Of a stretch of 64,000 nt of DNA, positions 11,184 through 31,234 are shown piece by piece. Position numbers and translations under genes: made by a program. The notes under the pieces were generated by a model, which worked only from the letters and a program-made list of their open reading frames with translations, was not told where the DNA came from and did no database searches. Source of the stretch: Acuticoccus mangrovi. Its GTDB lineage: Bacteria; Pseudomonadota; Alphaproteobacteria; Rhizobiales; Amorphaceae. The stretch covers positions 124,001 through 188,000 of the forward strand of contig NZ_JAEKJA010000006.1 in the NCBI RefSeq assembly GCF_016411865.1, read 5' to 3'. Each line of letters opens with the position of its first letter. Within the stretch, counting starts at the first letter, position 1.

Positions 11184-11206
11184 GACGCATAGTGCGTCTA
11201 GCAGAC
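11184..11206. promoter_or_regulatory. Operator-like double inverted repeat before the CoA-transferase operon
   Basis: Two overlapping inverted repeats sit 76 to 98 bases before the CoA-transferase start: GACGCA-TAG-TGCGTC (11184-11198) and GTCT-AGC-AGAC (11196-11206). The second resembles GTCTG-N5-CAGAC found before the HMG-CoA-lyase-like gene, so one regulator, perhaps the IclR protein encoded at 19044-19772, may bind both. This link is inference. Confidence 0.35.
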
Positions 11207-11281
11207 ATATAAGGCCCGGCGGCGATCGTCCGCACAAGGCCGACCCCGGATCGTCCGATCCGGATGAGGGAAGGAGACGAG

Positions 11282-13425: not shown

Positions 13426-13426
13426 C

Positions 13427-14851: not shown

Positions 14852-14895
14852 CCGACTTCCGCCTACCGACACAACAACACGCACTGGAGGAATCC

Positions 14896-15894: not shown

Positions 15895-15907
15895 GATCGA
15901 GACACGG

Positions 15908-16411
15908 GTGGCCGAAACGACCATGCGCATGTTGAAACGCATCCTCGACGGCATCTTCGGCGTCGCCGCGGCGATCGGCGACATCGCCGTCGCCGGAATG
16001 GTGATCGTCATGTTTTCCGAGATCGTGATGCGTCAGGGGTTCAACACGTCCCTGCGCGTCGCGGACGAGGTGTCCGGCTATCTCCTCGTTTCGGCCACCT
16101 TCTTCGGCCTTTCGGCGGCGATCCGCCGGGGGGCCCTGTTCCGCTTCGAAAATGTCGTGACGGCGCTGCCGTTGGGCTTGAAGCGCATCTATGAGCGCTT
16201 TCTCTATCTCCTCGCCTTCGGCGTGGGGGCGGTGCTGTTCTGGCGCCTCTACATCTACACCGCCCGGTCCTTCACCCGTGGCGTCGTGTCCGAGGGCTAC
16301 TACGCGATCCCGGTCTGGCTGGTGCAGATCGCGATGCCGCTGGGCCTTGCCGTCATGCTGCTCGCGATCCTCGAACGGCTCGTGCGCCCGATCCAGGATC
16401 CCGCATCGTGA
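15908..16411 (+). CDS. dctQ: TRAP transporter small membrane subunit (DctQ)
   Basis: A 167-residue integral membrane protein with four hydrophobic segments, matching the DctQ family (DUF-like, low conservation). The segment FSEIVMRQGFNTSLRVADEVSGYLLVSATFFGLSAAIR, here cited by its ends only, is the usual EhhRY.f..s...aeEls.y..vw..f.G...a.r region. It pairs with the large DctM subunit, whose GTG start overlaps its TGA. Start is uncertain: GTG at 15908 or ATG at 15923, neither with a strong ribosome site. Confidence 0.9.
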   Translation: MAETTMRMLKRILDGIFGVAAAIGDIAVAGMVIVMFSEIVMRQGFNTSLRVADEVSGYLLVSATFFGLSAAIRRGALFRFENVVTALPLGLKRIYERFLYLLAFGVGAVLFWRLYIYTARSFTRGVVSEGYYAIPVWLVQIAMPLGLAVMLLAILERLVRPIQDPAS

Positions 16412-17712
16412 CCAACATTCTCATCGCCATGGCCCTCTTCGGGGTGATGCTGATCGGCGGACTGTGGATTCCGTTCGCCATCGGCCTCACCTCGCTCGTC
16501 TACATCTACCTGGTGCAGGGTCCGTTCGGGATGAACGCCATCGGCTTCATCGCCTGGGACGCGACCAACTCCTTCACCCTGACGGCGATCCCGCTGTTCA
16601 TCCTCCTCGCCGAGCTGTTGATCCGCTCGGGCGTCGCGACCCGCGTCTATGACGGTCTGTCGCGTATGGTGCGCTTCCTGCCGGGCGGGCTCCTGCAGAC
16701 CAACATCGCGGGCTGCGCCGTGTTCTCCGCCATCTCCGGCTCGTCGGTGGCGACGGCGGCGGGCATCGGCTCCGTCGCCATGCCGCAGCTCCTGGCCCGC
16801 GGCTACTCGCGGCCGATGGCGGCCGGCAGCCTCGCCGCAGGTGGTACGCTCGGCATCCTCATCCCGCCGTCGATCGCCATGATCGTCTACGGCTCCTTCA
16901 CCGAGACCTCGGTGGCCCAGCTCTTCTTCGCCGGCCTGATCCCGGGCCTGATGATGGCCGGCCTGTTCATGCTCTATATCGGCATCCGCGCCATTCTCGT
17001 GCCGTCGGTGGCGCCGCGCGAGACGGTGGAGGAGGGCGACCACATTCCGGCACTCTCCTGGCGCACGGCGGCGGACATTCTCCCCTTCGCGGTGCTGATC
17101 GGCCTGACGCTCGGCTCGATCTATCAGGGGATCGTGACGCCGACGGAGGCGGCCGCGTTCGGCTGCGTGGTGACGCTCCTCATCGCCGCCATCTGGGGAA
17201 AGTTCAACTTCACCGTTCTGCGCGAGAGCCTCCGTGCGGCGATGATCACGTCGGCCTCGCTGATGTTCATCATCCTGTCGGCCCACTTCTTCGCCTATGC
17301 CGTCAGCGTCGACGGGCTCGGCCAGCGCCTCACCGACACCCTGCTCGGCATGGACCTGTCGAAGACCCAGCTCCTTTTCGCCATCGTGGTGCTGTTCCTG
17401 GTGATGGGCTGCTTCGTGGAGGCGATCGGCATCATGGTGATCACCCTGCCGGTGCTCTATCCGGTGCTGACGGGCTTCGGCATCGACCTCGTGTGGTTCG
17501 GGGTGATGATGGTGATCCTCATCGAGATCGGCCAGCTCACCCCGCCGCTCGGGATCAACATCTTCGTCATCCAGGGCATCTGGGACGGGCGATTGCCGGA
17601 GGTGATCCGCGGCGTCGTGCCCTTCTTCTTCCTGATGCTCCTGGCGCTGGCACTGGTGTGGATCTTCCCCGACATCGCGACCTACCTGCCTCGCAACATC
17701 ACCAGTCGCTAG
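16408..17712 (+). CDS. dctM: TRAP transporter large permease (DctM)
   Basis: A 434-residue inner-membrane subunit that forms the sodium-coupled translocation path of a TRAP transporter. It has about a dozen hydrophobic segments and the family hallmarks AISGSSVATAAGIGSVAMPQL, GGTLGILIPPSIAMIVYG and TPTEAAAFG, plus LTPPLGINIFVIQGI near the C-terminus. The GTG start overlaps the dctQ stop as GTGA. It is the last gene of the CoA-transferase/TRAP operon; two hairpins follow it. Substrate is presumably the acid activated by the upstream CoA-transferases. Confidence 0.95.
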   Translation: MTNILIAMALFGVMLIGGLWIPFAIGLTSLVYIYLVQGPFGMNAIGFIAWDATNSFTLTAIPLFILLAELLIRSGVATRVYDGLSRMVRFLPGGLLQTNIAGCAVFSAISGSSVATAAGIGSVAMPQLLARGYSRPMAAGSLAAGGTLGILIPPSIAMIVYGSFTETSVAQLFFAGLIPGLMMAGLFMLYIGIRAILVPSVAPRETVEEGDHIPALSWRTAADILPFAVLIGLTLGSIYQGIVTPTEAAAFGCVVTLLIAAIWGKFNFTVLRESLRAAMITSASLMFIILSAHFFAYAVSVDGLGQRLTDTLLGMDLSKTQLLFAIVVLFLVMGCFVEAIGIMVITLPVLYPVLTGFGIDLVWFGVMMVILIEIGQLTPPLGINIFVIQGIWDGRLPEVIRGVVPFFFLMLLALALVWIFPDIATYLPRNITSR

Positions 17713-17733
17713 TGGATCGACCGAGCCATTTGA

Positions 17734-17763
17734 GGCCCGCCTCTCGGTTCGAGAGCGTGGGCC
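17734..17763 (+). terminator. Hairpin after TRAP operon
   Basis: A two-part hairpin starting 22 bases after the dctM stop: inner stem CTCTCG / CGAGAG with loop GTT, outer stem GGCCC / GGGCC. No T tract follows. It is the first of two hairpins that probably end the TRAP operon transcript. Confidence 0.5.
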
Positions 17764-17807
17764 CAAGCCACTCGAATGTCTGGAAAAGTCGATCCATTAG
17801 ACAATAG

Positions 17808-17845
17808 GCCGAGTGGTTCGATCCGCTTCGATCGAACCACTCGGC
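17808..17845. terminator. Perfect 15-bp stem-loop
   Basis: Inverted repeat GCCGAGTGGTTCGAT / ATCGAACCACTCGGC with an eight-base loop CCGCTTCG. All fifteen pairs match, which is far beyond chance for this spacing. It may be a second terminator of the TRAP operon or a copy of a dispersed element. The word CCACTCG also occurs at 17767, just before it. Confidence 0.5.
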
Positions 17846-18122
17846 GAAACACCCCGCCCGCCGAGACCGTGGCCGCACGCCCCCCGTGCGGCCACTTTGC
17901 GTTTGGTCGCATGCCAGACTGTCTATCGAATACGTCGAGACTGATGTTGAACCAGTAAGATTTGCAAATATGATTGGAAGTAACTCAATATCTTCTCGTA
18001 TTGTTTAAAGTAATCTATAGGGACTCGCTACAACAGCGTCCGGATTTCTGATTGGATTCTGTGTTATCGCTATGATGAGACTGAAGGGCGTCGAGATGAG
18101 ACGTGCTTCAGGAGAAATCGTC
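17846..18122. other. AT-rich intergenic region before manganese catalase
   Basis: The gap from dctM to the catalase is 410 bases. The two hairpins take up its first part; the rest has no gene, and the stretch 17930-18070 is clearly AT-rich against the surrounding GC-rich coding DNA. It presumably holds the catalase promoter. TATAGG at 18016-18021 could be a -10 element, but the matching -35 position (TTCTCG) is weak. A short frame opened by an ATG at 18072 only extends the catalase gene upstream and lacks a ribosome site. Confidence 0.45.
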
Positions 18123-19025
18123 ATGTTCATGCGCATCGATCGGCTGCAGGTGGAGATGCCTGTGCCGAAGGATCCCGATCCCACCGCGGCCGCGGCCGTT
18201 CAAGAGCTGATGGGCGGCCGCTTCGGCGAGATGTCCACGCTGATGAACTACATGTTCCAGTCGATGAACTTCCGCAACAAAGAGAAGCTCAAGCCCTACT
18301 ACGCGCTGATCTCCAACATCTGCACAGAAGAGCTCGGTCACGTCGAGCTGATCGCGGCGACCGTCAACGGATGCCTGAGTGGGGTGGGATCGACCGGCGA
18401 CATCACCCAGGGGGACGCGGGCTTCGCGCACATGAAGGAGGCCGGACTTCTCGGCCAGTTCATCAATTTCGGCGCCCAGGCGATGCCGACCGACTCGCGC
18501 GGCGAGGGATGGCACGGCTCCTACGTGTTCAACTCCGGCAACCTGATCCTCGACCTGTTGCACAACTTCTTCCTGGAGAACGGGGCGCGGACGGCGAAGC
18601 TGCGCGTCTACCAGATGACCGACAACCCGGCGGCGCGGCAGATGCTCGGCTACCTCTTCACCCGCGGCGGGGTGCACGCGCACGCCTACGCGCTGGCGCT
18701 CGAGAAGCTGACCGGCGTCGAGATGCGGAAGATGCTGCCCATCCCGGCGGTCGAGGACATTCAGCTGCCCGAATCGCGGAAGTTCATGGAGGAGGGCTGG
18801 CACCGCCGCCTCTACCGCTTCAGCCCCGGCGACTATAAGGACATCGCCGAGATCTGGACCGGCAACCACATGGACGGTCAGCCGCTCGAGGTCGTCGACG
18901 GCCCGCCGCAGGGGGGCGACATGAACGACTACGAGGGGATCTCGGAGGCGTTCACGCCGGAATATCACCCCGAGGAGATCTTCGAGATGGCGCAGAAGCT
19001 CTATAAGCAGGCGGGCGGCGTCTAG
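18123..19025 (+). CDS. Manganese (non-heme) catalase
   Basis: A 300-residue dimanganese catalase, which splits hydrogen peroxide into water and oxygen without heme. All five expected metal ligands are present with family spacing: E36 in GRFGEMSTL, E70 and H73 in EELGHVEL, E152 in NFFLENGAR and H185 in GGVHAHAY (E35, E66, H69, E148, H181 in the Lactobacillus enzyme). Length is normal. ATG at 18123 is chosen because AGGAG lies eight bases before it. It stands alone, after an AT-rich spacer and convergent with the IclR gene. Regulation by peroxide or stationary phase is possible, but no site was identified. Confidence 0.95.
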   Translation: MFMRIDRLQVEMPVPKDPDPTAAAAVQELMGGRFGEMSTLMNYMFQSMNFRNKEKLKPYYALISNICTEELGHVELIAATVNGCLSGVGSTGDITQGDAGFAHMKEAGLLGQFINFGAQAMPTDSRGEGWHGSYVFNSGNLILDLLHNFFLENGARTAKLRVYQMTDNPAARQMLGYLFTRGGVHAHAYALALEKLTGVEMRKMLPIPAVEDIQLPESRKFMEEGWHRRLYRFSPGDYKDIAEIWTGNHMDGQPLEVVDGPPQGGDMNDYEGISEAFTPEYHPEEIFEMAQKLYKQAGGV

Positions 19026-19043
19026 GCTCGGTTCCCGACCCCG

Positions 19044-19772
19044 TCAGACGTTGGCGAGGCGCCGGCCGAGGGCCTGCGCCTCCTCTTGCAGGATGGGCAG
19101 GAGCCGCTCGACCGCCCCCGGCGCCTCGAACCGGCTCTTCAGCCCCGACACGTTGAGCGCGCCGACGAGCGCGCCGCCGGTGGCGAGCACCGGCACCGAC
19201 AGGCCGGCGATGTCGGGGTCGCGCTCGCCGAGCGAGAGATAGTAGCCCGCCTCGCGGATCGCCTCGAAGAAGGGCCCCTCGCCGCCGGAGTAGGCGATGA
19301 GCACCCGTCCGCTCGCGCCCCGGTCGATCGGCAGCATCGCCCCTTCCTCCAACACGTGGCGGATGGTGCGGCTCGAATGCTGGCGATATAGGCAGAGCCG
19401 CATGTTGCCCCGGCGGACGTAGAAGGTGGCGGTCTCGCCCGTCTCTTCGGCGATGCGGGCGAGCACGGGGCGGACGCGGTCCGCGAGGTTGAAGGCGCTC
19501 TGGTAGAGATTGCCGAGTCGCCACAGGCTGGGGCCGAGGCGGAAGTGGCCGTCCTCGTCGCGGTGGAGATAGTCGAAGCGGGCGAGCGAGGCATAGAGGC
19601 GCAGCACCGTGCTGCGGTAGAAGCCGGTGCGCTTGGTGATCTCGCTCAGCGTCAGGCGCGGCGAGCCGTCCGCGAACGCCTCCAGAATGGTCAGCGCGCG
19701 CTCCACGGCCTCCACCTTCTGCTCCTTGTGAGCGTCGGCTGGCGTTCCGGGAGAGGGGGCGGGGTCCTTCAT
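19044..19772 (-). CDS. IclR-family transcriptional regulator
   Basis: A 242-residue IclR regulator. The winged helix covers about residues 18-82 (VEAVERALTILEAFADG, then LSEITKRTGFYRSTVLRLYASL) and the effector-binding domain follows (TATFYVRRGNMRLCLYR, ASGRVLIAYSGG, GLSVPVLATGGALVGALNVSG). ATG at 19772 follows GAAGAGG. It sits 31 bases after the enoyl-CoA-hydratase-like gene on the same strand, so it is probably the third gene of that operon and regulates it. A palindromic site upstream of the first gene (21542-21556) is a candidate target. The nearby CoA-transferase/TRAP operon may also be under its control (inference). Confidence 0.92.
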   Translation of the reverse strand: MKDPAPSPGTPADAHKEQKVEAVERALTILEAFADGSPRLTLSEITKRTGFYRSTVLRLYASLARFDYLHRDEDGHFRLGPSLWRLGNLYQSAFNLADRVRPVLARIAEETGETATFYVRRGNMRLCLYRQHSSRTIRHVLEEGAMLPIDRGASGRVLIAYSGGEGPFFEAIREAGYYLSLGERDPDIAGLSVPVLATGGALVGALNVSGLKSRFEAPGAVERLLPILQEEAQALGRRLANV

Positions 19773-19803
19773 GGTCGCCTCTTCGAAGGAGACGGGCGCC
19801 GCG

Positions 19804-20568
19804 TCAAGAGCGCGCGGTACCGGAGGCAAAGGCGGCGAGGGCGCGATCGGCGGCGTCGGTGGTGCGGCGCAGCGCCCGGTTCACCTCGCGGCCGAAGGCG
19901 AGCGAGGCGGCAAGGTTGCGCTCCGCGCCGGGCGCGGCGTCGAGGGCGCGCTTGATGGCGGTCACCACGGCCGGATCGTAGCCGGCGACACGGGCGGCGA
20001 GCTGTTCGGCCCGCGCCACCACGCCGTCGTCGCGCACCTCGTTGACGAGGCCCCAGCCGCACGCGGTGGCCGCATCGAGCCGCTCGTCGGACAGGAGCAG
20101 AAACGCGGCCTGCTTGCGCGTCAGCTCCGGCTGGGAGGTCGGGCCGGAGAGGGAGGCATAGCTTCCAAGCCGGGCCTCGGGGAGGGCAAAGGTCGCATCG
20201 CGATGCGCGATCGCGAGGTCGGCGACGTTGACGAGGGTCATCCCGGCGCCGATCGCCATCCCCTCCACCGCGGCGATGAGCACCGCCGGATGGCCGCGCA
20301 GGGCGAGGACGAGGCGGCGCCATTCCTCGTCCGCGCCGGTCATGTTGCCGGCCGCCTTGTCGGCCTCGCGCTCCTTGAGGTCGAGGCCGGCGCAGAAGGC
20401 GGGCCCTTCAGCGTCGATCACGATTGCGCGAGCTTGACCCTCGAGCGCCTCCAGCGCGTCGATCAGGGCGAGGCGAAGGGCCCGGTTCAGCGCGTTGCGT
20501 TTCTTCGAGCGCTGCAGGGTGAGGCGAGCCCAGCCCTCGCCTCGCGTGATGGCGAGGGGGGCATCCAT
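19804..20568 (-). CDS. Enoyl-CoA hydratase/isomerase family protein
   Basis: A 254-residue crotonase-superfamily enzyme acting on acyl-CoA thioesters. The oxyanion-hole segments are present (GPAFCAGLDLKE and AVEGMAIGAGMT), and the second catalytic Glu position is kept in LPEARLG. The first catalytic Glu of enoyl-CoA hydratases, normally in a GxGxELA segment, is replaced: the sequence reads GAGMTLVNVAD, with Thr at the expected position. It may therefore be an isomerase, a hydrolase or a specialised hydratase rather than a standard fatty-acid enzyme. The gene starts two bases before the end of the lyase gene's stop region (20570), so the two are tightly coupled. Confidence 0.9.
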   Translation of the reverse strand: MDAPLAITRGEGWARLTLQRSKKRNALNRALRLALIDALEALEGQARAIVIDAEGPAFCAGLDLKEREADKAAGNMTGADEEWRRLVLALRGHPAVLIAAVEGMAIGAGMTLVNVADLAIAHRDATFALPEARLGSYASLSGPTSQPELTRKQAAFLLLSDERLDAATACGWGLVNEVRDDGVVARAEQLAARVAGYDPAVVTAIKRALDAAPGAERNLAASLAFGREVNRALRRTTDAADRALAAFASGTARS

Positions 20569-20569
20569 C

Positions 20570-21493
20570 TCAGGCCGCCCGCGCGTAGTGGAAGCCTTTG
20601 GGAAGCCCCGCGTCCGGCACGTTGCCGTAGAGCGGCTCGCCCGGCAGGCCCTTCAGGATGATCTGGCGCGCGTCGAGGAGCTTGTCGATGTCGACGCCGG
20701 TGTCGAGCCCCATCGATTCCAGGAGGAAGACGAGGTCTTCCGTCACGATGTTGCCGGTGGCGCCGGGCGCGTAGGGGCAGCCGCCGAGGCCGGCTTGCGA
20801 GGAATCGAAAGTCGTCACCCCGACCTCCAGCGCGGCGACGACGTTGGCGAGACCCTGGCCGCGGGTGTTGTGGAAGTGGGCGCCGCCCGCCTTGTCGCCC
20901 ACCTCGGCGATCAGGCGCTTGAAGAGGCGGCGCACCTGGGCCGGATTGCCGTAGCCGGTGGTGTCGGAGAGGCCGATATTGTCGGCGCCGGCCTTGGCGA
21001 GGGCGACGGCGATCTCGATCACCCGGTCCTCGTCCACCGCCCCTTCCATGGTGCAGCCGAAGGCGGTGGAGACGCCGGCGTCGATCTCGCGATAGGGCCC
21101 GTCGAGGCTGTCGCGCAGGGCGCAGACCCGGGCGACGTCGGCGATGGCTTCGTCGGTGGTGCGGTTGATGTTCTTGCGCGAGTGGGTCTCGGAGGCCGAG
21201 ATCGGCATGGTGATGCGCAGGGCGCCCGCCTCGAAGGCCCGCTCCGCACCCTTGAGGTTCGGTACCAGAGCGAGAACGCCGAGGCCGGGGATCGCGTTGG
21301 CCGCCTGCACGAGCTCGGCGCAGTCGGCCATCTGCGGCAACAGCCGGGGCGAGACGAACGAGCCCACCTCGATCTCGGGCAGTCCGGCGGCGGCGAGCGC
21401 GGTGATCCACTCGATCTTGATGGCGGTGGGCATCGTGCGGTCGATGCTCTGCAACCCGTCGCGGGGGCCGACTTCGCTGACGATGACGTCCAT
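20570..21493 (-). CDS. Hydroxymethylglutaryl-CoA lyase family protein
   Basis: A 307-residue TIM-barrel lyase of the DRE/HMGL superfamily. It has EVGPRDGLQS at the N-terminus (Arg-Asp pair for substrate and metal), the metal-binding HFHNTRGQG, and the catalytic Cys loop GLGGCPYAPGATGN. Authentic HMG-CoA lyases carry HCHD at the metal site; here the last Asp is Asn, so the preferred acyl-CoA may differ. HMG-CoA lyase splits 3-hydroxy-3-methylglutaryl-CoA into acetoacetate and acetyl-CoA. It is the first gene of a three-gene operon with an enoyl-CoA-hydratase-like gene and an IclR regulator. No biotin carboxylase for leucine breakdown is nearby. Confidence 0.92.
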   Translation of the reverse strand: MDVIVSEVGPRDGLQSIDRTMPTAIKIEWITALAAAGLPEIEVGSFVSPRLLPQMADCAELVQAANAIPGLGVLALVPNLKGAERAFEAGALRITMPISASETHSRKNINRTTDEAIADVARVCALRDSLDGPYREIDAGVSTAFGCTMEGAVDEDRVIEIAVALAKAGADNIGLSDTTGYGNPAQVRRLFKRLIAEVGDKAGGAHFHNTRGQGLANVVAALEVGVTTFDSSQAGLGGCPYAPGATGNIVTEDLVFLLESMGLDTGVDIDKLLDARQIILKGLPGEPLYGNVPDAGLPKGFHYARAA

Positions 21494-21866: not shown

Positions 21867-23027
21867 TCAGATGCCGGCGCGGCAGAGCGAGGCGAGGCGG
21901 CTCATCATCGCGGCGCCGTCGTCGAGCTCGTCGAGCCCGATCCATTCGTCGGCCTTGTGGGCCCGGCCGATGTCGCCGGGGCCGCAGACGAGGGAGGGGA
22001 CGCCAGCGGCGGAGAAGACGCCGCCCTCGGTGCCGAAGGAGACGGCGCCGGGCGGCACGTCGGTGCCGGCGATGCGGGCGAGAAGGGCGGCGGCCGCCTC
22101 GTCGCGCGTGTCGAGCCCCGGATAGGCGGAGAGTTCCTCGACGAGGATGTCGGCCTCGGGAGCCCGGGCCTTGAGGGCGGCCCGCTGGGCGGCGACGAGC
22201 GCGTCGATGCGGTCGAGGAAGAGGCGGGGATCGCTCGCCGGAAGATAGCGGATCTCGAAGTCGAGCGTCGCCGTGTCCGGCACGAGGTTCACCGCCGAGC
22301 CGCCGTGGAGGGCGCCGACGTGGATCGTGGTGTAGCCCGGCTCGAAGCGCTCGTCGCCGGGGACCTCGGCCGCCTCGCGGGCGAGGGCGGCGAGACCGAC
22401 GGCGATTTCGGCGGCCGCATCGACGGCGTTCGCCGCCCGGTGGGGCATCGCCGAGTGGCCGGCCCGCCCGCGGACGCGGATGCGGCGGGCGATCTTGCCC
22501 TTGTGGGCGGAGGCGATGCGCATCGAGGTCGGCTCGCCGATGATTGCGAGCACCGGCGGTGCCACCGCCGCGACGAGGGCGGCGGCGAGGTCCGGAACCC
22601 CGCGGCAGCCGACCTCCTCGTCGTAGGAGAAGGCGATGTGGATCGGCGTCTGGAGCGGCCGTTCGGTGAATTCGGGAAGATGGGCGAGGGCGAGGGCGAG
22701 GAAGCCCTTCATGTCGCTCGTCCCGCGGCCGTAGACGCGGCCGTCCTTCGTCAGCCCGTCGAACGGGGGAACGGACCAGTCCTGCCCCTCCACCGGCACC
22801 ACGTCCATGTGGCCGGATAGGACGATGCCGGGCACCGTGGGATCGCCGATGGTGGCGAGGAGCGAGGTCTTCGCCCGATCGGCGGAGGGCACGCGGGTGA
22901 CGGCGAGTCCCGCCTCCGCCATCGCCTCCTCGCAATAGGCGGCGATGTCGAGGTTGGAGACGTCGCTGACCGAGGCGAAGCGCACCAGGTCGACGAGACG
23001 GGCGTGGATGCGCTCGCGGGCCGACAC
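21867..23027 (-). CDS. argE: Acetylornithine deacetylase-type M20 amidohydrolase
   Basis: A 386-residue zinc amidohydrolase of the M20 family, closest in layout and length to ArgE (383 residues in E. coli). Metal-binding segments are all present: LSGHMDVVP with His and Asp, GRGTSDMKG, the catalytic DEEVGCRG, GEPTSMRI, and a late His in GRAHKADEW. GTG at 23027 is the start; the upstream flavin reductase stops five bases earlier. As the last gene of a catabolic operon (RidA, DUF1028, HpaB, HpaC) it probably removes an acyl or carbamoyl group from a pathway intermediate rather than serving arginine synthesis (inference). Stacked hairpins follow its stop. Confidence 0.88.
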   Translation of the reverse strand: MSARERIHARLVDLVRFASVSDVSNLDIAAYCEEAMAEAGLAVTRVPSADRAKTSLLATIGDPTVPGIVLSGHMDVVPVEGQDWSVPPFDGLTKDGRVYGRGTSDMKGFLALALAHLPEFTERPLQTPIHIAFSYDEEVGCRGVPDLAAALVAAVAPPVLAIIGEPTSMRIASAHKGKIARRIRVRGRAGHSAMPHRAANAVDAAAEIAVGLAALAREAAEVPGDERFEPGYTTIHVGALHGGSAVNLVPDTATLDFEIRYLPASDPRLFLDRIDALVAAQRAALKARAPEADILVEELSAYPGLDTRDEAAAALLARIAGTDVPPGAVSFGTEGGVFSAAGVPSLVCGPGDIGRAHKADEWIGLDELDDGAAMMSRLASLCRAGI

Positions 23028-23032
23028 GGGCC

Positions 23033-23542
23033 TCAGACCGGCAGCCGGTGGAAGGCGCGGTCGGAGAAGACCAGCGGTCGTGCCTCGTTCTCGCGCACCG
23101 CGGTCACCGCGCCCACCACGATGGCGTGGGAGCCGAACTCGCACACGTGAGCCACCGTGCAGGCGATGTTTGAGAGGGCGCCCTCGAGCGCCGGCGCCGT
23201 CCCCTCGATAGGGCTCCAGCCGTGGGCGGAGAATTTGTCGTCCCTCAGATGGGGCACCATGCCGGCGAACACCTTCGCCACCTCCTCCTGCTCGCCGGAG
23301 AGGATGTTCGCGACAAACGTCCCGTTGCGCACGATCGTGTCGTAAGAGCGGGCGTTCTGGTGCACGCAGAACATCACCGAGGGCGGCTCCATCGAGACGG
23401 ACGTGAAGGAGGAGACGGTGAGCCCCGCCCGTCCCCCCACGCCGTCGGTGGTGATGACGGCGACGCCGGCGGCGGTACGGCGCATCGCGCTGCGGAAGGC
23501 CGCCTCGTCGACGGCGGGCGGGGTGGGAAGCGCGCGCGCCAT
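23033..23542 (-). CDS. hpaC: Flavin reductase (HpaC family)
   Basis: A 169-residue NAD(P)H:flavin oxidoreductase of the HpaC/RutF type. It supplies reduced flavin to a partner monooxygenase. Family landmarks are FRSAMRRTAAGVAVITT, GLTVSSFTSVSMEPP (flavin phosphate binding), VMFCVHQNARS, FVANILSGEQEEVAKVF and a C-terminal HAIVVGAV. The ATG overlaps the hpaB TGA (ATGA), so the two components of the monooxygenase are co-translated. It could also feed the luciferase-like monooxygenase encoded on the other strand at 28870. Confidence 0.92.
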   Translation of the reverse strand: MARALPTPPAVDEAAFRSAMRRTAAGVAVITTDGVGGRAGLTVSSFTSVSMEPPSVMFCVHQNARSYDTIVRNGTFVANILSGEQEEVAKVFAGMVPHLRDDKFSAHGWSPIEGTAPALEGALSNIACTVAHVCEFGSHAIVVGAVTAVRENEARPLVFSDRAFHRLPV

Positions 23543-24990
23543 CACGATCCCTTCACCCGGTCGGAGAGGCCGGCGGCGCGGCGGACGAAGTCGAGCGGGC
23601 CGTCGAAGTCGAAGTTCTGATAGAGGGCGTTCAGGTGGTTGAAGTGCGGCGCCTGGGCGAACTGCACGAAGGTCAGCCGGTGCCCCGCATAGTCGGAGTT
23701 GAGGAGGTCGCGGGCGAAGGCGAGGAGCTTGCGCCGATCGTCGGCCTGCCAGGTGTCGTTGAGCGAATAGAATTTCTTGAGCCAGTCGCCGCTGCCTTCG
23801 GCGTCGAAGGAGGCGGCGTTGGGGGTGACGCAGATCTGGCCGCCGCAGAGCTCGCGGGCGATGTGCATCATCGTCGGCAGCTGCGAGCAGGCGAGGATGC
23901 GGCCGGCGTAGAGGAGCGACTGGTTCGGCATCAACAGGCCGCCGGGGCTCGTCTCGGCGAGGGCGATCGAGGCGGTGAGGTGCGCGTTGATGCCTTCGCG
24001 GTAGCAGGCGAGCTCGGCGAGCTTCTCGCGCACCCCCTGGAGCTTGTCGAGGCCGGTCTGCTTGGCGTTCCACATCGCCGCGCCGATCATCATGTCGGCG
24101 ACGTAGAGGATGCGCAGCACGTAGGGGAAGGCGGAGTAGCGGTGGAGCGTGGAGCGGATGAACTGCGCGGCCTTGGTGTGGCGATAGAAGAAGACGTCCT
24201 CCCAGGGGATCAGGACGTCGTCGAACACCACCAGCGCCTCCACCTCGTCGAAGCGGTTGGAGAGGGGGTAGTCGCGCGGATCGCTGCGCCCGGCAAAGCC
24301 GGTGCGGCAGATGTGCTTGACGCCCGGCGCGCCCATCTGGACGACGCAGCCGACGGCGTAGTCGGATAGCTCCTCGTCGCGCCACGCGCCGACGGTGGGC
24401 TTCAGGAAGGCCTGATCGGCGTAGGCGGCGGCGGTCTCGTACTTCGCGCCGCGGATGACGATGCCGGCGTCGGTCTCCTTGGTGACGTGCACCATGAAGT
24501 CCGGGTCCTGCTCCTGCGGCGGGCGCGAGCGGTCGCCCTTCGGGTCGGTGTTCGCCGAGACGTGGAAGACGTCCTTCTCGATCACCTTGCGGATGTTGCG
24601 ATCGATGTTGTCGGCGAAGCGCGGGTCGATCGAGGCGAGCACGTCGCGCCCGTCCATCAGCGACCACATCTCGCCGATGGTCTCGTCGCCGACGCGCGTC
24701 ACGACGCCGCCGATGTCTTTCATGACGTGGTCGATGGCGACGCGCTTGTCGTCCCAGTCCTTCGTCTCGCGCGGCGGGCGGTTGAAGATGGAGTGGAGCT
24801 CGTTGTCCTCGGCGTAGGTGAGGGCGCTCGCGAACTCGCCGTCGTGCGCCATGTCGAACATGCGCGCCTTGATGTCGATGATCGGCTTCATCGCCGGGTG
24901 GGTCGTGACGTCCTTGACGCGCTCACCGTCGACCCAGACCTCGCGGCCGTCGCGGAGCCCTTCCTTGTATTGTTCACCCGTGCGGATCAT
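23542..24990 (-). CDS. hpaB: 4-hydroxyphenylacetate 3-monooxygenase family oxygenase (HpaB)
   Basis: A 482-residue reduced-flavin-dependent oxygenase of the HpaB family, which adds an oxygen atom to aromatic or heteroaromatic rings. It has the family opening MIRTGEQYKEGLRDGREVWV, HSIFNRPPRETKDWDDKR in the N-terminal domain, TDAGIVIRGAKYETAAAYADQ, and IPWEDVFFYRHTKAAQF with PHFNHLNALY near the end. ATG at 24990 is preferred to GTG at 24996 because AAGGGA is then well spaced. The reductase HpaC follows with an ATGA overlap. 4-Hydroxyphenylacetate itself is doubtful: no hpa ring-cleavage genes accompany it, and the upstream genes suggest a nitrogen compound. Confidence 0.92.
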   Translation of the reverse strand: MIRTGEQYKEGLRDGREVWVDGERVKDVTTHPAMKPIIDIKARMFDMAHDGEFASALTYAEDNELHSIFNRPPRETKDWDDKRVAIDHVMKDIGGVVTRVGDETIGEMWSLMDGRDVLASIDPRFADNIDRNIRKVIEKDVFHVSANTDPKGDRSRPPQEQDPDFMVHVTKETDAGIVIRGAKYETAAAYADQAFLKPTVGAWRDEELSDYAVGCVVQMGAPGVKHICRTGFAGRSDPRDYPLSNRFDEVEALVVFDDVLIPWEDVFFYRHTKAAQFIRSTLHRYSAFPYVLRILYVADMMIGAAMWNAKQTGLDKLQGVREKLAELACYREGINAHLTASIALAETSPGGLLMPNQSLLYAGRILACSQLPTMMHIARELCGGQICVTPNAASFDAEGSGDWLKKFYSLNDTWQADDRRKLLAFARDLLNSDYAGHRLTFVQFAQAPHFNHLNALYQNFDFDGPLDFVRRAAGLSDRVKGS

Positions 24991-25045
24991 GCGCACCGTC
25001 CCTTGGTGGATGGAGCCTGAACGATAGGACGAGGCCTAGCCTCAG

Positions 25046-25057
25046 GAAAATATTTTC
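25046..25057. promoter_or_regulatory. Palindrome in AT-rich gap before hpaB
   Basis: Perfect 12-base palindrome GAAAATATTTTC within a 95-base AT-rich gap between the 2-hydroxyacid dehydrogenase stop and the hpaB start. A second palindrome, GATTAATC, lies at 25073-25080. Other junctions in this operon overlap, so the gap probably holds an internal promoter with an operator for hpaB, hpaC and the ArgE-type gene. Confidence 0.5.
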
Positions 25058-25085
25058 ATTGTGTCGATTGGATCGATTAATCCGA

Positions 25086-26018
25086 TCAATAGCCGCGTGC
25101 CACGTCGATCTGGTTGGTCAGAGGCTCGCCGGCTTCGAAGCGGCGGATGGTGTCTATCACCTGCTCGGCCGCCGAGGTGGCGCTGGCAACGGAGGCAAGG
25201 TGCGGCGTGATGAGCACGTTCTCCATGGCCCAGAGGGGGCTGTCGGCGGGCAGCGGCTCGGTCTCGAAGACGTCGAGCGTCGCCTCGCCCACCTGGCCGC
25301 TCGCGAGGGCGTCGACGAGGGCCGGCTCGTCGATGATCGCGCCGCGCGCCACGTTGATGACCTTGGCTCCGCGCGGCAGCATCGCGAGGCGTTTCGCGTC
25401 GAGGAGGTGCGTGGTCTCTGGCGTCTGCGGCAGCACGACCACCAGAATGTCGCTGGTCGCGAGGAAGTCCGGCAGCGCGTCGAGGCCGTGGACCGAGCGC
25501 ACGCCCGGCACCTCCTTCGGCGTGCGCGACCAGCCCTGCACCTGAAGCCCCTGGCGGGCGACCTCGGCGGCGGCGTGCGCGCCGAGATGGCCGAGGCCGA
25601 GGATGCCGACGCGGATGCGGTCCGGATCCGTCGGATGCACGTAGTACCACTCGCCGCGGCGCTGGGCGCGCTCGAACACGGGAATGTCGCGGGCGTAGCG
25701 CAGCACGGCGAAGAGCACGTAGCCCGCCATCGTGCGCTTCATGTTGGTGTCGGCGAGGCGGCAGATCGGCAGGTCGGGCAGGTCGTCGCGCGCGAGAAGG
25801 GCGTCAACGCCCGCCCCGAGATTGATGACGAGCTTCAGATTGGGGAACTGCGCGAAAAAGCCGTGCGGGGCGTTGAAGACGAGGGCGTAGTGCACCGTCT
25901 CGGGGTCGAGATCGTCGGCCCGCGCGAGCGTGACGCCCGGCAGGCCCGCCGCGACGGCGTCGGCCCAGCCGGAGATGTCCTTCATCGTGGTGTCTCGGAA
26001 GACGATCGAATAGCTCAT
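25086..26018 (-). CDS. D-isomer-specific 2-hydroxyacid dehydrogenase (GhrA-like)
   Basis: A 310-residue NAD(P)H-dependent dehydrogenase of the glyoxylate/hydroxypyruvate reductase A type. It reduces a 2-oxoacid to a D-2-hydroxyacid or the reverse. The nucleotide-binding motif is [13 protein letters not shown], the substrate-binding Arg is in [14 protein letters not shown], the Glu is in DVFETEPLP and the catalytic His is in ITPHLAS. The start overlaps the stop of the dehydroquinase-like gene (ATGA). In this operon it may handle a 2-oxoacid released by RidA-assisted imine hydrolysis (inference). Confidence 0.92.
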
Positions 26019-26461
26019 TCGGCGGTCTCTGCGATGAGGTGGGCAAGGGCGGTCAGCGCCAGCTCGTAGCCGAGAGCCCCGAGCCCGGCGATCACGCCGG
26101 TGGCGGCGCGCGACACGTACGAATGATGGCGGAAGGGCTCGCGCTTCCAGATGTTCGACATGTGCGCTTCGATGATCGGCCCGTCGAAGGCGAGGAGGGC
26201 GTCGAGGATCGCGACCGAGGTGTAGGTGAGCCCGGCGGCGTTGATGATGATGCCGGCGGCGCTCCCCCGCGCCTCCTGGATCCAGTCGACGAGGACGCCC
26301 TCGTGGTTCGACTGGCGAAAGTCGAGGGCGAGGCCGAGGCGTTCGGCGTGACGCTCACAGCGCGCCTTGATCGCGGGAAAGCTCTCGCTGCCGTAGGTGC
26401 CGGAGGGGTCGAGGCCGTAGAGGTTCGCGTTGGGACCGTTGAGGAAGAACACGGTCGTCAT
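26015..26461 (-). CDS. Type II 3-dehydroquinate dehydratase-like protein, key Arg and His changed
   Basis: A 148-residue protein with the type II dehydroquinase fold signature: [10 protein letters not shown] at the N-terminus, the catalytic-type Tyr (Y23, in GTYG), QSNHEG, INAAG and [18 protein letters not shown] with H100. Two residues of the true enzyme are altered: the lid-loop Arg (TREP in family members) is Asp18, and the His of THTSVA is Tyr80. Normal shikimate-pathway activity is therefore unlikely. Its genes upstream and downstream overlap by four bases (DUF1028 and GhrA-like), placing it in a catabolic operon. It may dehydrate or isomerise a different compound. Confidence 0.85.
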
Positions 26462-27135
26462 GCGGGGTCGCCGGGCACGCCGAAGGAGGGGGCCTCGCCG
26501 GGAGCGATCGCCCGGTTGACGTAGTCCTCCATCTGCGGGGCGAACACCTCCCACGTGGTAGCGAGATCGGCGATGGGGGCGTCGGACCAGTCGATCCGGA
26601 GGTCGACGAGCGGCCATTCGAGGTCGCGCACCACCTTGAGGCCCGCCGAGTGGACGGGCCCCGCTTCGCCGCCGGCGGCAAGGCCTGCCTCGAGCGCGGC
26701 GAGGAGGCGGCCCGGGAAGGGAACCGACGACGCCGCCTCGAACGCGGCGACGATCGCCGCGGGCACGCCCTCGTCGGCGAGGAGGTTGCCGGCGGAGATC
26801 GCCCCCGTGCCCTTTGCGATGGCGTGGATGCCGAGGGCGCCCGATCCCGAATAGCCGGCCGTGGCGCCGGTGTTGTCGACCACGGTGAGCTGGCGGAAGG
26901 CGGCGTAGGGGGTGGAGGCGACGAGGGTGTCGATCACGTCGGCGGCGCTCATCCCGGCGGCGAGATGGTCGAGGCCGTTGATGCCGAGCATCGGGTCGGT
27001 GACGTTCTGGCTCGCGATCACCCCGACGCCGGCCCGGGTGTGGCTGCAGCGGGCGGCGACGGCGGGGGAGGAGGAGGAGATGGCGATGCCGAACATCCCC
27101 GTCTCGGGGCAGCGGGCGGAGATCGAGAAGGTCAT
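26458..27135 (-). CDS. DUF1028 family protein (Ntn-hydrolase-like)
   Basis: A 225-residue DUF1028 protein. The family begins, as here, with [30 protein letters not shown] (ends cited: TFSI and RCS), followed by [31 protein letters not shown] and [12 protein letters not shown]1028 proteins resemble Ntn hydrolases and are often encoded beside RidA or amidohydrolases; no activity is firmly established. Both junctions are ATGA overlaps, with RidA before and the dehydroquinase-like gene after, so the three proteins are made together. An amide-cleaving role in nitrogen-compound breakdown is a reasonable guess. Confidence 0.88.
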
Positions 27136-27557
27136 GCCGCGGCCTCGTCGGGAATGACGGCGATGGCGTCGATCTCGACGACCCACTCCGGCCGCGCGAG
27201 CGCCGACACGACGATGCCGGTCGATACCGGATAGACGCCCTTCAGCCACTTGCCGACCACGCGGTAGACCGCCTCGCGGTAGCGCGGATCGATGATGTAG
27301 ATGGTGATCTTGCACACGTGGGCGAGCTCGGAGCCGGCCTCCTCGAGCAGCATCTTGATGTTCGTCATCGCCTGCTCGGCCTGGGCGGTGGCGTCGCCCA
27401 CGCCGACACTCTCGGAGGTGTCGAGGTCTTGGCCGATCTGGCCGCGGACGAACACCATCTGGCCCCGCGCCACCACCGTCTGGCAGAGGTCGTTGTCGAG
27501 CTGCTGCTCGGGGTAGGTGTCGCGGGTGTTGAACTTGCGGATGCGGGTATGGGCCAT
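27132..27557 (-). CDS. RidA family protein
   Basis: A 141-residue protein of the RidA/YjgF/UK114 family, trimeric proteins that hydrolyse reactive enamines and imines. It has [50 protein letters not shown] and the C-terminal [18 protein letters not shown], where family members often have R and E for the active site (Arg in [12 protein letters not shown], Glu close after). ATG at 27557 follows CGAGG. It is the first gene of the chain of four overlapping genes and lies 131 bases after the LysR gene on the same strand. In this setting it likely processes an imine formed by the monooxygenase steps. Confidence 0.92.
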
Positions 27558-27688
27558 CGGTTGCCTCGGGTGGGGCGCTGTCGCGGGACATGCAGGATGC
27601 GGGCCTTGTTGCGCCCGCGGTGCGCGCACCACTATGGCGAGGCCGCCGGGCCGCCGGCCAATAGGAAAATCCTTGCCCTTGAAGAGCC

Positions 27689-28729
27689 TCAGCCGAGGCC
27701 GGGCTCGCCCTTGCCCGCCTCGACCTTGCCCGCCTCGCCGACCGCCGTCGTCTCGGTGGAGGACACCGGCTGGTCGCTGCCGGAGAGGAGGGCCGGCGAC
27801 GTCGGCGTGAGCGAGCCGGGCGCGAAGATGCCGCCGGGGGAGAAGGCGCTTCGCAGATAGCGCGAGAACGCCTCCATCGCCGGCCGCGACACCTGCCGGC
27901 CGAGCGCCAGCCCGACGATGCGCACCGGCTCCGGCGAGCCGGCGATGGGGATCGTGGCGATGCGTCCGCCGTCGACGCTGGCATCGGTCTTCGGCACGGC
28001 GTTGTGCAGCGTGTAGCCCTGGCGATGGCCGACGAGGCCGCGGATGAGGTCGGCCGACTGCGAGCGCAGCGCCACCTTCGGCTCGACCCCGGCGGTGGCG
28101 AAGAGGCTGAGGAAGTAGTCCCGCGTATGCGGCAGGTCGAGGAGGAGGAAGGGTTCGTCGGCGAGCGCGGCGAGCTCGATGGCGGGCTGGCCGGCGAGCG
28201 GGTGGTCGGCGGACAGAAGCACGTAGGGCCGCAGATCGGCGAGCGGGAACCTGGTGATGTCGTCGGGCAGTGCGTAGGCGTAGGAGAGGGCGAACTCGAT
28301 GCGGCCGGAGCGCAGCAAGCCGATGATCTCGTCCTGGTTTCCCTCGCGGATGGTGAGCGTGATGCCCGGGTATTTGTGGCGAAAGTCGGTGAAGAGGGCG
28401 GGCATGAAGCGCGCGGCGAGGGTGACGAAGCAGCCGATGGAGATCTCGCCGGACAGCTCCTCGCCGAGGGAGCGGGCGTCCCGTTCGAAATCGGCCGCGT
28501 GCTTCAGGAGGAGGCGTGCCTCCCCGATGATGCGCAGCCCCGCCGGCGTCGGCGTGACGCCGCGCGCGTGGTGGCGCACGAAGATCGACACGGAGAACTC
28601 GTGCTCGAGCTGCGCGACGGCGGCCGAGACCGAGGGTTGCGAGATGTTGAGCATCCGCGCCGCCTCGGTGATGTTGCCGCAGTCTGCGGTCGCCACGAGG
28701 TAGCGCAGCGCCCTCAACGTGACGGTCAT
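27689..28729 (-). CDS. LysR-family transcriptional regulator with unusual C-terminal tail
   Basis: A 346-residue LysR regulator. The helix-turn-helix is in residues 3-62 (LRALRYLVATADCGNITEAA, LNISQPSVSAAVAQLE) and the effector domain follows to about residue 298. About 45 further residues, rich in Ser, Pro, Gly and Thr, extend beyond the usual end of the family (around 300) and look disordered. It is divergent from the luciferase-like monooxygenase and is followed on its own strand by the RidA operon, so it is the probable regulator of both. The 140-base gap to the monooxygenase gene should contain its site; no clean T-N11-A palindrome stands out. Confidence 0.92.
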   Translation of the reverse strand: MTVTLRALRYLVATADCGNITEAARMLNISQPSVSAAVAQLEHEFSVSIFVRHHARGVTPTPAGLRIIGEARLLLKHAADFERDARSLGEELSGEISIGCFVTLAARFMPALFTDFRHKYPGITLTIREGNQDEIIGLLRSGRIEFALSYAYALPDDITRFPLADLRPYVLLSADHPLAGQPAIELAALADEPFLLLDLPHTRDYFLSLFATAGVEPKVALRSQSADLIRGLVGHRQGYTLHNAVPKTDASVDGGRIATIPIAGSPEPVRIVGLALGRQVSRPAMEAFSRYLRSAFSPGGIFAPGSLTPTSPALLSGSDQPVSSTETTAVGEAGKVEAGKGEPGLG

Positions 28730-28869
28730 CGGAAAAAACTCTGTTTCCTGGTTCCTTTCCGTTGTTTTAGCGATGCATGATCGTTGCGCAACCGGGCGCA
28801 CTTCGTCGCCGCTCGCGCGCACCGCCCGGACGCCGGCAGAGGGCCGCGGGGCGGCCATGGAGAGGCACG

Positions 28870-30219
28870 ATGACGAAGAAGACGATGGCACTCGCCGTGC
28901 TGGTGCAGGGGACGGGCGCCCACCCCGCGTCGTGGATGGAGACCGGCGCGCGCCGCGATCTCGCCACCGACATCGACTACTATGCCGACCTCGCGGCGAT
29001 CGCCGAGCGCGGCCGCTTCGACCTCTTCTTCATCGCCGACACCCCCGGCGCGCGCACCACCGATCTCCACGCCTGGAGCCGCTTTCCGCTCTTCATGAAC
29101 GTGTTCGAGCCGGTGACGCTGCTGTCGGCCCTGTCGGCGCGCACCTCGCGCATCGGCCTCGGCGCGACGGCCTCTACGAGCTTCTACGAGCCCTACAACG
29201 TCGCGCGCCTGTTCGCCTCGCTCGATCACCTGTCGCACGGCCGGGCGGCGTGGAACGTGGTGACCTCGGCGAACGACTTCGCCGCCCGCAATTTCGGCCT
29301 CGACATGCTGCCGCCGCACGACGACCGCTATGCCCGCGCCCGCGAGTTCCTCGAGGTGGTGGAGGCGCTGTGGGACACCTGGGAGGACGACGCCTTCGTC
29401 AACGATCTCGACGCACAGCTCTATTTCGATCCCGAGAAATTCCACCCGATCGCCCACGAGGGCGAGCATTTCCGGGTGAATGGGGGCCTCAACATCGCCC
29501 GCCCGCCTCAGGGGCGCCCGGTGATCATCCAGGCCGGCGCGTCGGAGGCGGGCAAGGCGTTCGCCGCCGAGCATGCCGAGGTAGCGTTCGGGATCGCCGA
29601 CACGGTAGACAAGGGCAAGCGCTTCTACGCCGACCTCAAGGGGCGGATGGCGGCGTTCGGGCGGCATCCGGACGAATTGAAGCTCCTTGCGGGCATGTCC
29701 GTCGTGGTGGGGGATACCAAGGCGGAGGCGGAGGCGGAGTTCGCCCGCCAGCAGGCGCGCATTCACCCGATCGTGGGGGTGATGCGGATCTCCGCCGATC
29801 TCGAGACCGACCTCTCCGATCTTCCCCTCGACGAGCCCGTGCCGGTGGAGCGCATTCCGCAGACGTCCAACCTGCACCAGGCCTATTTCGACAATATCGC
29901 CGGCATGATCCGCTCCGGCATGACGCTGCGGGAGGTGGCGATGGCCTATCAGCGCGGCCGCAACACCTTCTGCGGCTCGCCGGTGGAGGTCGCCGACCAT
30001 CTGGAAGCCTGGATCGACGAGGGCGCCGCCGACGGGTTCATGATGGTGCTGCCGACGATGCCGGAGAGCCTCGCCGCGTTCGTCGACAAGGTGGTGCCGG
30101 AGCTGCAGCGGCGCGGCCGCGTGCGGCGGGAGTATCAAGGCACGACCCTGCGCGAGCATCTGGGCCTCGCCCGGCCGCCGCATCCGCGGGCGCGCGCGAT
30201 CGCGTCCGCGGCCGAGTAG
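28870..30219 (+). CDS. Luciferase-like monooxygenase, NtaA/SnaA/DszA type
   Basis: A 449-residue reduced-FMN-dependent monooxygenase of the NtaA/SnaA/DszA/SoxA family, which includes nitrilotriacetate and dibenzothiophene-sulfone oxygenases. Typical segments are HPASW near residue 20, GRFDLFFIADTP, EPVTLLSALSARTSRIGLGATASTSFYEPYNVAR (ends cited EPVT and NVAR), WNVVTSANDFAARNFG and PVIIQAGASEAG. Length fits the family. It diverges from a LysR gene whose other neighbour is the RidA/HpaB operon. The flavin reductase HpaC could supply it. Substrate unknown; heteroatom-carbon bond cleavage is the family theme. Confidence 0.92.
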   Translation: MTKKTMALAVLVQGTGAHPASWMETGARRDLATDIDYYADLAAIAERGRFDLFFIADTPGARTTDLHAWSRFPLFMNVFEPVTLLSALSARTSRIGLGATASTSFYEPYNVARLFASLDHLSHGRAAWNVVTSANDFAARNFGLDMLPPHDDRYARAREFLEVVEALWDTWEDDAFVNDLDAQLYFDPEKFHPIAHEGEHFRVNGGLNIARPPQGRPVIIQAGASEAGKAFAAEHAEVAFGIADTVDKGKRFYADLKGRMAAFGRHPDELKLLAGMSVVVGDTKAEAEAEFARQQARIHPIVGVMRISADLETDLSDLPLDEPVPVERIPQTSNLHQAYFDNIAGMIRSGMTLREVAMAYQRGRNTFCGSPVEVADHLEAWIDEGAADGFMMVLPTMPESLAAFVDKVVPELQRRGRVRREYQGTTLREHLGLARPPHPRARAIASAAE

Positions 30220-30231: not shown

Positions 30232-31131
30232 CTACTCGGCGGCGACCGGCAGCTCGGCTGAGCAGAAGCCCATCGACGGGCCGCACTGCCACTTCTCGCG
30301 CACGATGTCGGCGAGCTTCTGGGCCAGCGCGGCCTTCGCCCCATCGGTGACGTAGAGGCCGATATAGGTCTCCGGCAGCGCCGGAAGCACGTCCTCGTGG
30401 TCGATCTTCTCGAGGTGCGGCGGGTTCATCGCCTCGATGCCCGCATGCACGGCGAAGTCGGCCGACACGCTCGCCTCGACGGTGCGGATCGACATGGAAT
30501 CGACCGCCATCACCCACGGAATGCCCACGTCGTCGAGGGCGCGCTGCACCCAGGGGCGGAAGATGCACCCCGCCTCGAAGGCGAGCGGCAGCGGCCGGCG
30601 CCGCCACGCCGTGCCGCCGATGGCACCAACCCAGACGAGGCGGCTGCGCTGCAGGATCTCCGCCGAAGGGTCCGCATGGGTCTCGGTGGTGAGGATCACG
30701 TCCACCTCGCCGCGGGCGAACTGCTCTTTCAGCTGCGAGGTGTAGGACGATTGCAGCGATACCCGCACCCGCGGAAAGGCGCGGGCGAAGGCGCGCAGGA
30801 CCTCCGGCACGTTGGGATAGACCACGTCGTGCGGCGCGCCGAGGGTGAGCTCGCCCTGGTAGCCCTCGTCGGTCATGCGCAGCCAGATCTCGTCGTTCAG
30901 CTCCAGCATGCGGCGAGCGTAGGACATCAGTTGCTGGCCGGCGGAGGTCAGCGTCATGCCTTTGCGCGAGCGCTCGAGCAGCGTCTGGCCGAGGCCCTCC
31001 TCGAGCCGCTTCAGCTGCATCGACACGGCCGACTGGGTGAGGTTGAGCCGCGCCGCGGCACGGGTCACGCCGCCGGTCTCGGCGATCGCCACGAAGCTAC
31101 GCAGGGCGGACAGGTCGAGGGTTCGAACCAC
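30232..31131 (-). CDS. LysR-family transcriptional regulator
   Basis: A 299-residue LysR regulator with the DNA-binding region in residues 3-62 (LDLSALRSFVAIAETGGVTRAA, LNLTQSAVSMQLKRLEEGLG) and a normal effector domain ending near the C-terminus. The sequence resembles HdfR/CbbR-like members, but no target is evident. GTG at 31131 is chosen over TTG at 31137 because AGGA is then nine bases upstream. It is convergent with the luciferase-like monooxygenase gene (12 bases apart) and divergent from the small DUF1127 gene, which may be a target or a bystander. Confidence 0.92.
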   Translation of the reverse strand: MVRTLDLSALRSFVAIAETGGVTRAAARLNLTQSAVSMQLKRLEEGLGQTLLERSRKGMTLTSAGQQLMSYARRMLELNDEIWLRMTDEGYQGELTLGAPHDVVYPNVPEVLRAFARAFPRVRVSLQSSYTSQLKEQFARGEVDVILTTETHADPSAEILQRSRLVWVGAIGGTAWRRRPLPLAFEAGCIFRPWVQRALDDVGIPWVMAVDSMSIRTVEASVSADFAVHAGIEAMNPPHLEKIDHEDVLPALPETYIGLYVTDGAKAALAQKLADIVREKWQCGPSMGFCSAELPVAAE

Positions 31132-31234
31132 GATCAATTCCTGTGATGGAAACCATCAGAACGTTTCGTTTCACTTATCGAGCTTGCGAGGACAGATCAA
31201 GGGCCACGGTCACGTGGAAGAGGAGGCGAAGGAC

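Follow-up and report, generated by a model that had tools for sequence, protein, structure and literature searches.

What is degraded by an operon that combines a RidA-family protein, a DUF1028 protein, a dehydroquinase-like protein and a two-component flavin monooxygenase with a LysR-type regulator? The question is raised by positions 21867-30219 of a 64,000-nucleotide stretch of Acuticoccus mangrovi DNA (contig NZ_JAEKJA010000006.1, positions 124,001 to 188,000; hereafter the window), where a first-pass annotation made from the letters alone had placed an uncharacterised oxidative operon and a divergent luciferase-like monooxygenase (LLM). Coordinates and profile matches place every gene that it named where it had put it, and its proposal that a nitrogen-containing ring is the likely substrate is supported by the sequences. 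The ring attacked is probably imidazole, and the operon would then be a variant of the lower part of histamine degradation in Pseudomonas (the Hin pathway), in which the HpaB/HpaC pair would take the place of the flavin adenine dinucleotide (FAD) enzyme HinF as the ring oxygenase.

A regulator and three enzymes of the Hin type

The regulator and three enzymes carry this reading. The LysR protein (27689..28729, minus strand) has as its nearest solved structures 3fzv (E 4e-66) and 6m5f (E 5e-66), at about 226 bits, the next match falling to 3e-26 and 96 bits; a fold search likewise returned 3fzv and 6m5f on top, the latter titled HinK of P. aeruginosa, and with HinK as its nearest solved structure the window protein is classed as HinK-like. 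HinK responds to imidazole-4-acetate, which is converted to aspartate by hinFLHG (PMC8231116). Table 3 of PMC6467879 lists HinF as an FAD-monooxygenase (EC 1.14.13.5), HinL as an enamine deaminase, HinH as an amidase, HinG as an amidase of EC 3.5.1.8 and HinI as aspartate ammonia-lyase. Genomes with a counterpart of the solved HinK at 80-90% identity, which are taken as Pseudomonas on that ground, contain a run of genes for an FAD monooxygenase (the HinF homologue), RidA, DUF1028 and an M20 protein, and DUF1028 was found in 25 of the 25 genomes searched of one such Pseudomonas-like genus. From gene order and product names, not from a comparison of the accession sequences, we infer that this run is hinF, hinL, hinH and hinG, gene order likewise suggesting that HinH is the DUF1028 protein.

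Homologues of HinL, HinH and HinG are encoded together in the window, all on the minus strand. The RidA-family protein (27132..27557; 68% identical to the RidA of the run taken as hinLHG) adjoins the DUF1028 protein (26458..27135; Pfam PF06267, 217 bits; 54-55% identical), and the gene for an ArgE-like M20 amidohydrolase (21867..23027; 43% identical) ends the same run. The label "uncharacterised" is therefore not supported as it stands, since a histamine/imidazole-acetate route that has been studied genetically has homologues of three of the enzymes and of the regulator, nor is DUF1028 a protein of unknown activity, as the first-pass annotation had it, if gene order correctly makes HinH its published counterpart. 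The likeness presumably extends to flavin-based oxygenation of the ring. The window operon differs from the Hin pathway in having the AroQ-like, GhrA-like and LLM genes in addition, and in being without HinI and the genes that turn histamine into imidazole-acetate.

The names given to these enzymes require some caution. An active-site arginine is essential for the imine deaminase activity of RidA. The corresponding position, 112, is occupied by serine in 97 of 106 aligned rows and by arginine in none, and serine also stands there in the six HinF-linked rows printed; since the usual arginine is absent, the label "enamine deaminase" is doubtful for the window RidA and for the HinF-linked copies alike. 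The M20 protein passes two NCBIfam acetylornithine-deacetylase cut-offs, NF005710 (439 of 412 bits) and the equivalog TIGR01892 (359 of 297.7), and falls under that of NF003474. Because the equivalog cut-off is passed, it is gene company, and not family score, that suggests an N-formyl hydrolase.

Conservation of the gene set

The operon is real, and its conservation exceeds what chance would give. Of 385 genomes drawn evenly from the class, that of A. mangrovi included, 30 have HpaB matches at E 1e-60: A. mangrovi itself, one genome at 32% identity and 28 others with a best match of at least 63% (two of these 28 matches being partial). A DUF1028 gene (at least 47% identity) lies at most 5 kb from HpaB on the same contig in 20 of the 28, as matched by hand with one cut by a contig end, while the remaining eight have a close DUF1028 on another contig (five), a distant copy only (one) or none (two); RidA falls within the stretch fetched around HpaB in 24 of the 28. 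Plasmids yielded 13 HpaB relatives at 60-80% identity and two at about 52%, followed by a drop to 37% and about 30%, and RidA and DUF1028 stand alongside HpaB in all ten records opened of those 15 (three of the ten are unannotated, their genes being labelled by homology).

A genome collection contains at least 548 stretches encoding HpaB relatives. The counts that follow come from the 80 best, which, as the closest ones to the query, do not sample these relatives fairly. The 61 of these 80 with at least 19.5 kb, mostly from the window's own HpaB clade, are referred to as long loci, and their genes were called by our own bit-score limits. Core genes are frequent in them (LysR in 54, RidA and DUF1028 in 51 each, HpaC in 41, an ArgE-type gene in 29), and AroQ-like and GhrA genes each occur in 45, the same 45 loci, neither ever being found alone. 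Also present are an ABC binding protein (39), DUF336 (34), GST (24), HutD-family (13) and quinone-oxidoreductase-type (QOR; 12) genes, and an LLM (7). RidA and DUF1028 remain neighbours of this HpaB subfamily in different phyla, and the first-pass view of a dedicated gene set is supported. The HpaB gene is divided between two reading frames in the record of Halomonas sp. PA16-9.

The putative ring oxygenase

The oxygenase component (23542..24990, minus strand; Pfam HpaB_N and HpaB) and the flavin reductase (23033..23542, minus strand; Pfam Flavin_Reduct) belong to the same Pfam families and form the same gene pair as HpaBC, the 4-hydroxyphenylacetate 3-monooxygenase, but keep other gene company and score below the family cut-offs. 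HpaB reaches 212.7 of 480.2 and 165.1 of 885.2 bits (HpaB-1 and HpaB-2), and HpaC, whose best NCBIfam match is RutF, remains below both that cut-off (127.1 of 254.75) and the one for HpaC (126.3 of 205.95). In the Thermus enzyme (TtHpaB) the phenol hydroxyl is bound by Arg100, Tyr104 and His142 (PMC10537072). In the aligned columns all 121 HpaB rows, the window's among them, have Arg-Glu-Ser, and so does a distant HpaB paralogue on contig C63 of the A. mangrovi genome. Both the missed cut-offs and the altered site agree with the first-pass view that this HpaB differs from an ordinary 4-hydroxyphenylacetate hydroxylase. A tree of 122 HpaB rows places the window protein among 69 rows that group together with support 100 (quick method); 49 of the 69 come from loci with the AroQ-like/GhrA pair, and none of the six rows from histamine-dehydrogenase loci lies inside this group.

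A distant copy of the theme is found on C63 (C63:136000-155000, at 8240-17771), where HpaC, HpaB (39% identity), a GntR regulator, DUF1028, M20 and an ABC transporter are encoded.

HpaB and HinF in the same gene settings

Several loci place HpaB and HinF in comparable surroundings. No HinF match was found in the A. mangrovi genome at E 0.001, an empty answer that by itself would say little, but the same query gave 14 close HinF proteins in genomes of the class; HpaB was not found at E 1e-10 in seven of seven genomes with a HinK of at least 80% identity, and of the other seven genomes searched two had an HpaB, of 28-30% only. Proteins in loci L036 (Parasedimentitalea) and L154 (genome G176) best match solved histamine dehydrogenases, at 1253 and 1131 bits, whereas trimethylamine dehydrogenase gives 541 and 513, and in both loci the histamine dehydrogenase adjoins HpaB, RidA and DUF1028. 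By homology, histamine dehydrogenases are likewise assigned beside these genes in L037, L115 and L121, with a more distant one in L160. The stretches L154, L115 and L121, the last two from SAR324, carry HpaB without HinF, and the search of class genomes gave no HinF in G176. On a plasmid of Bacillus badius (L038), HpaB, HpaC, RidA and DUF1028 are accompanied by a class II deacetylase, a permease, a class III aminotransferase and an aldehyde dehydrogenase, and these extra gene kinds are those that adjoin HinK in locus L148. Aspartate ammonia-lyase is present in L034, L040 and L122.

In L118 (Neoroseomonas alba), a member of the window's HpaB clade, an amidohydrolase, an aromatic amino acid lyase and urocanase directly precede LysR-HpaB-RidA-DUF1028, and the stretch has neither AroQ-like nor GhrA genes. 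In L164 (genome G663), AroQ-like (77%) and GhrA (57%) genes, GST, QOR, ABC, RidA and DUF1028 lie with a HinF homologue (58%), and HpaB was not found in that genome at E 1e-10. Together, these loci show that HpaB- and HinF-type monooxygenases occur in the same gene settings. In the DUF1028 tree, L164 and six HinF-linked rows of other classes, one gene being present twice among the six, make up one group of seven (99/98), but the tree is not cleanly sorted by monooxygenase, because rows from HinF-bearing alphaproteobacterial genomes (G107, G117, G379, G303 and others) fall among the HpaB-linked ones. In three Bradyrhizobium clusters (L046, L048 and L053) both HpaB types are encoded, with one RidA and one DUF1028 per stretch, and it is the window-type copy that lies with the AroQ-like/GhrA pair.

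The AroQ-like and GhrA-like pair

The type II dehydroquinase-like protein (AroQ-like; 26015..26461, minus strand) belongs to the dehydroquinase family (Pfam PF01220) and retains, in 52 of 52 rows including the window's, the catalytic Tyr23 and His100 together with Asn74 and Arg111 of the site. The lid arginine and a site histidine define type II dehydroquinase activity. In the same 52 rows the lid arginine is missing (aspartate in 48), the site histidine is replaced by Tyr80 and an extra tyrosine, Tyr15, is present; the change of arginine to aspartate had been seen in the first-pass annotation, and the change of histidine to tyrosine comes as a second one that it did not mention. The protein passes the NCBIfam dehydroquinase cut-offs NF003806, NF003807 and NF003805 and fails those of NF003804 and of the equivalog TIGR01088 (158.5 of 169.85 bits). 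It is also set apart from AroQ by its place in catabolic clusters beside GhrA, consistent with a distinct subfamily. Its partner, a GhrA-like D-2-hydroxyacid dehydrogenase (25086..26018, minus strand), reaches 215 bits, where the cut-off for GhrA stands at 403.

The divergent monooxygenase and a possible second locus

The LLM (28870..30219, plus strand), a probable accessory, starts 140 bases from LysR on the opposite strand. It is over the cut-off of the NtaA/DmoA family of flavin mononucleotide monooxygenases (TIGR03860; 518 against 279.7 bits) and is no RutA (62.8 against 498.3). Proteins 54-64% identical to it are encoded in HpaB loci L033, L093, L095, L100, L117 and L118, and more distant ones in L058, L082 and L097. 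Elsewhere in the A. mangrovi genome (C14:16000-33000, at 5414-10814), consecutive genes encode an LLM with 56% identity to that of the window, an acyl-CoA-dehydrogenase-like protein, a LysR of the HinK-like kind and urocanase, in what looks like a second imidazole locus. A role of the LLM in imidazole metabolism is supported, short of proof, because relatives are found in HpaB loci and a copy stands two genes from urocanase.

In L095, two Rieske ring-hydroxylase genes (16750-20017) lie downstream of the HpaB/LLM cluster.

A possible route through the operon

Homologies, gene neighbourhoods and residue changes can be read from the sequences, and from these it is predicted that an imidazole carboxylate is degraded oxidatively, along the lines of the lower Hin pathway. 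The HinK-like LysR would sense an imidazole acid. HpaC would supply reduced flavin, with which HpaB and O2 would add oxygen beside a nitrogen of the imidazole ring, the task of HinF in Pseudomonas, and Glu105 of HpaB could bind the ring NH. The imidazolone-type product would then be opened and deaminated by the HinL-type RidA and the HinH-type DUF1028 protein, and the HinG-type M20 protein would strip an N-formyl group and so release an amino acid, which would be aspartate in the case of imidazole-4-acetate. The names of the intermediates follow the known imidazole-acetate route. The AroQ-like/GhrA pair may provide a clade-specific step, possibly acting on the side chain of some imidazole that is not imidazole-acetate; a conjectural dehydration or tautomerisation giving a 2-oxo acid, followed by its reduction by GhrA, would fit both families. 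The divergent LLM may make further substrates accessible.

Such a route would provide a testable substrate class for a widespread gene set whose members at present bear the annotations 4-hydroxyphenylacetate hydroxylase, type II dehydroquinase, DUF1028 and acetylornithine deacetylase. HpaB would be a second type of imidazole ring oxygenase, unrelated to HinF, and a new activity may be found in the AroQ-family protein. Among the papers listed in searches limited to open literature, none links HpaB to imidazole, none deals with DUF1028 together with HpaB or RidA or with DUF1028 in a gene cluster, none treats imidazoleacetate with a monooxygenase or RidA, and none combines histamine with HpaB.

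Evidence against, and other substrates

A number of observations weigh against an imidazole substrate handled in the manner of the Hin pathway. The regulator is only 38.5% identical to the HinK homologue of a genome taken as Pseudomonas, HinK itself has a weak affinity for imidazole-acetate (1.56 mM, PMC8231116), and a search for a LysR box in both intergenic stretches found none, the best scores being matched by 229 of 300 and 254 of 300 shuffles. RidA and DUF1028 are each missing from ten of the 61 long loci, and the ABC transporter usual in the clade (its binding protein) has no close counterpart in the A. mangrovi genome, where relatives have 20-30% identity. The M20 protein could be a plain acetylornithine deacetylase, given the equivalog cut-off that it passes. 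The AroQ-like and GhrA proteins have no counterpart or role in the Hin pathway, and the three of five dehydroquinase cut-offs passed by the former would speak against a clean break from dehydroquinase. Finally, a HinF of at least 58% identity is present in 14 class genomes (in three with in-frame stops), and six of these 14 also have HpaB, in separate loci, where about one would be expected if the two were independent, and in L036 and L037 HinF and HpaB share one cluster. Since six class genomes and these two loci hold both, HpaB may do another job than HinF; the two may serve different imidazoles that share their later enzymes. A strict either/or use of the two enzymes was ruled out by the six genomes.

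Within the imidazole reading, two substrates are about equally plausible. It may be an imidazole other than imidazole-4-acetate, such as imidazole-lactate or an N-substituted compound, with the AroQ-like and GhrA proteins acting on the side chain and the LLM on the N-substituent. The strict pairing of AroQ-like and GhrA genes in all 45 long loci having either is consistent with this, as are urocanase and the lyase beside HpaB in L118 and the Bradyrhizobium clusters in which the window-type HpaB keeps the pair. The genes leading from histamine to imidazole-acetate are also rare, with one aminotransferase, one histamine dehydrogenase and one aldehyde dehydrogenase in the 61 long loci, a scarcity that also weighs against the Hin-like reading in general. 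The choice of compound nevertheless comes from chemical reasoning, no side chain being directly indicated. With similar reserve, the AroQ-like/GhrA/HpaB clade as a whole may represent an undescribed route for such an imidazole, in which a former dehydroquinase has taken up a new acid-base reaction in partnership with a 2-hydroxyacid dehydrogenase, and an HpaB-type enzyme with glutamate for the phenol-binding tyrosine oxygenates the ring.

A plain replacement of HinF, in which imidazole-4-acetate itself is taken up from outside and converted to aspartate, is about as plausible. Its downstream genes would be those of the Hin pathway, the regulator is HinK-like, and HinF and HpaB share settings, in G663 and in the histamine clusters. 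Against it stand the AroQ-like/GhrA pair, which it does not explain, the presence of HinF and HpaB together in six class genomes, and aspartase, which at our score limits was found in none of the 61 long loci, a result that also counts against the imidazole reading in general.

It is unlikely that the enzymes, drawn from a common pool, act on a different N-heterocycle of the pyrrole-2-carboxylate, hydantoin, pyrimidine or pyridine type. HpaB-family and LLM enzymes do act on several rings, and HpaC resembles RutF, but the HinK-like regulator and the histamine dehydrogenase, HutD-family and hut-type genes near relatives of the operon point to imidazole. The first-pass comparison with the Rut pyrimidine pathway holds for the overall scheme, in which a monooxygenase and a flavin reductase are combined with a Rid protein and a hydrolase, and fails for the enzymes: the Rut pathway was rejected on scores of 62.8 of 498.3 bits for RutA, 39 of 169.1 for RutC (RidA) and 127.1 of 254.75 for RutF (HpaC), the LLM being of the NtaA/DmoA type. 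Degradation of 4-hydroxyphenylacetate or another phenol, with the remaining genes unrelated, has the Pfam HpaB and HpaC families in its favour, but is so improbable, given the NCBIfam HpaB cut-offs missed by far, the replacement of Tyr104 by glutamate and of His142 by serine in all 121 rows and the conserved gene set, that it was rejected on the first two grounds.

Gene junctions and neighbouring genes

Read directly, the junctions RidA/DUF1028, DUF1028/AroQ-like and AroQ-like/GhrA-like are ATGA overlaps, as the first-pass annotation had said; its extension of this to hpaB/hpaC is nearly right, that junction being TGATG, or GTGA if a GTG start is taken. The spacing is 5 nucleotides from HpaC to the M20 gene and 95 from the GhrA-like gene to HpaB. 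Outside the conserved set examined, an IclR regulator, an enoyl-CoA hydratase and an HMG-CoA-lyase-like gene lie beside the operon (19044-21493). The stretches 13741-17712 and 18072-19025 encode the DctP and DctM components of a TRAP transporter, together with a manganese catalase. On the other side, a second LysR gene (30232-31137), LrhA-like at 139 of 530 bits, is convergent with the LLM.

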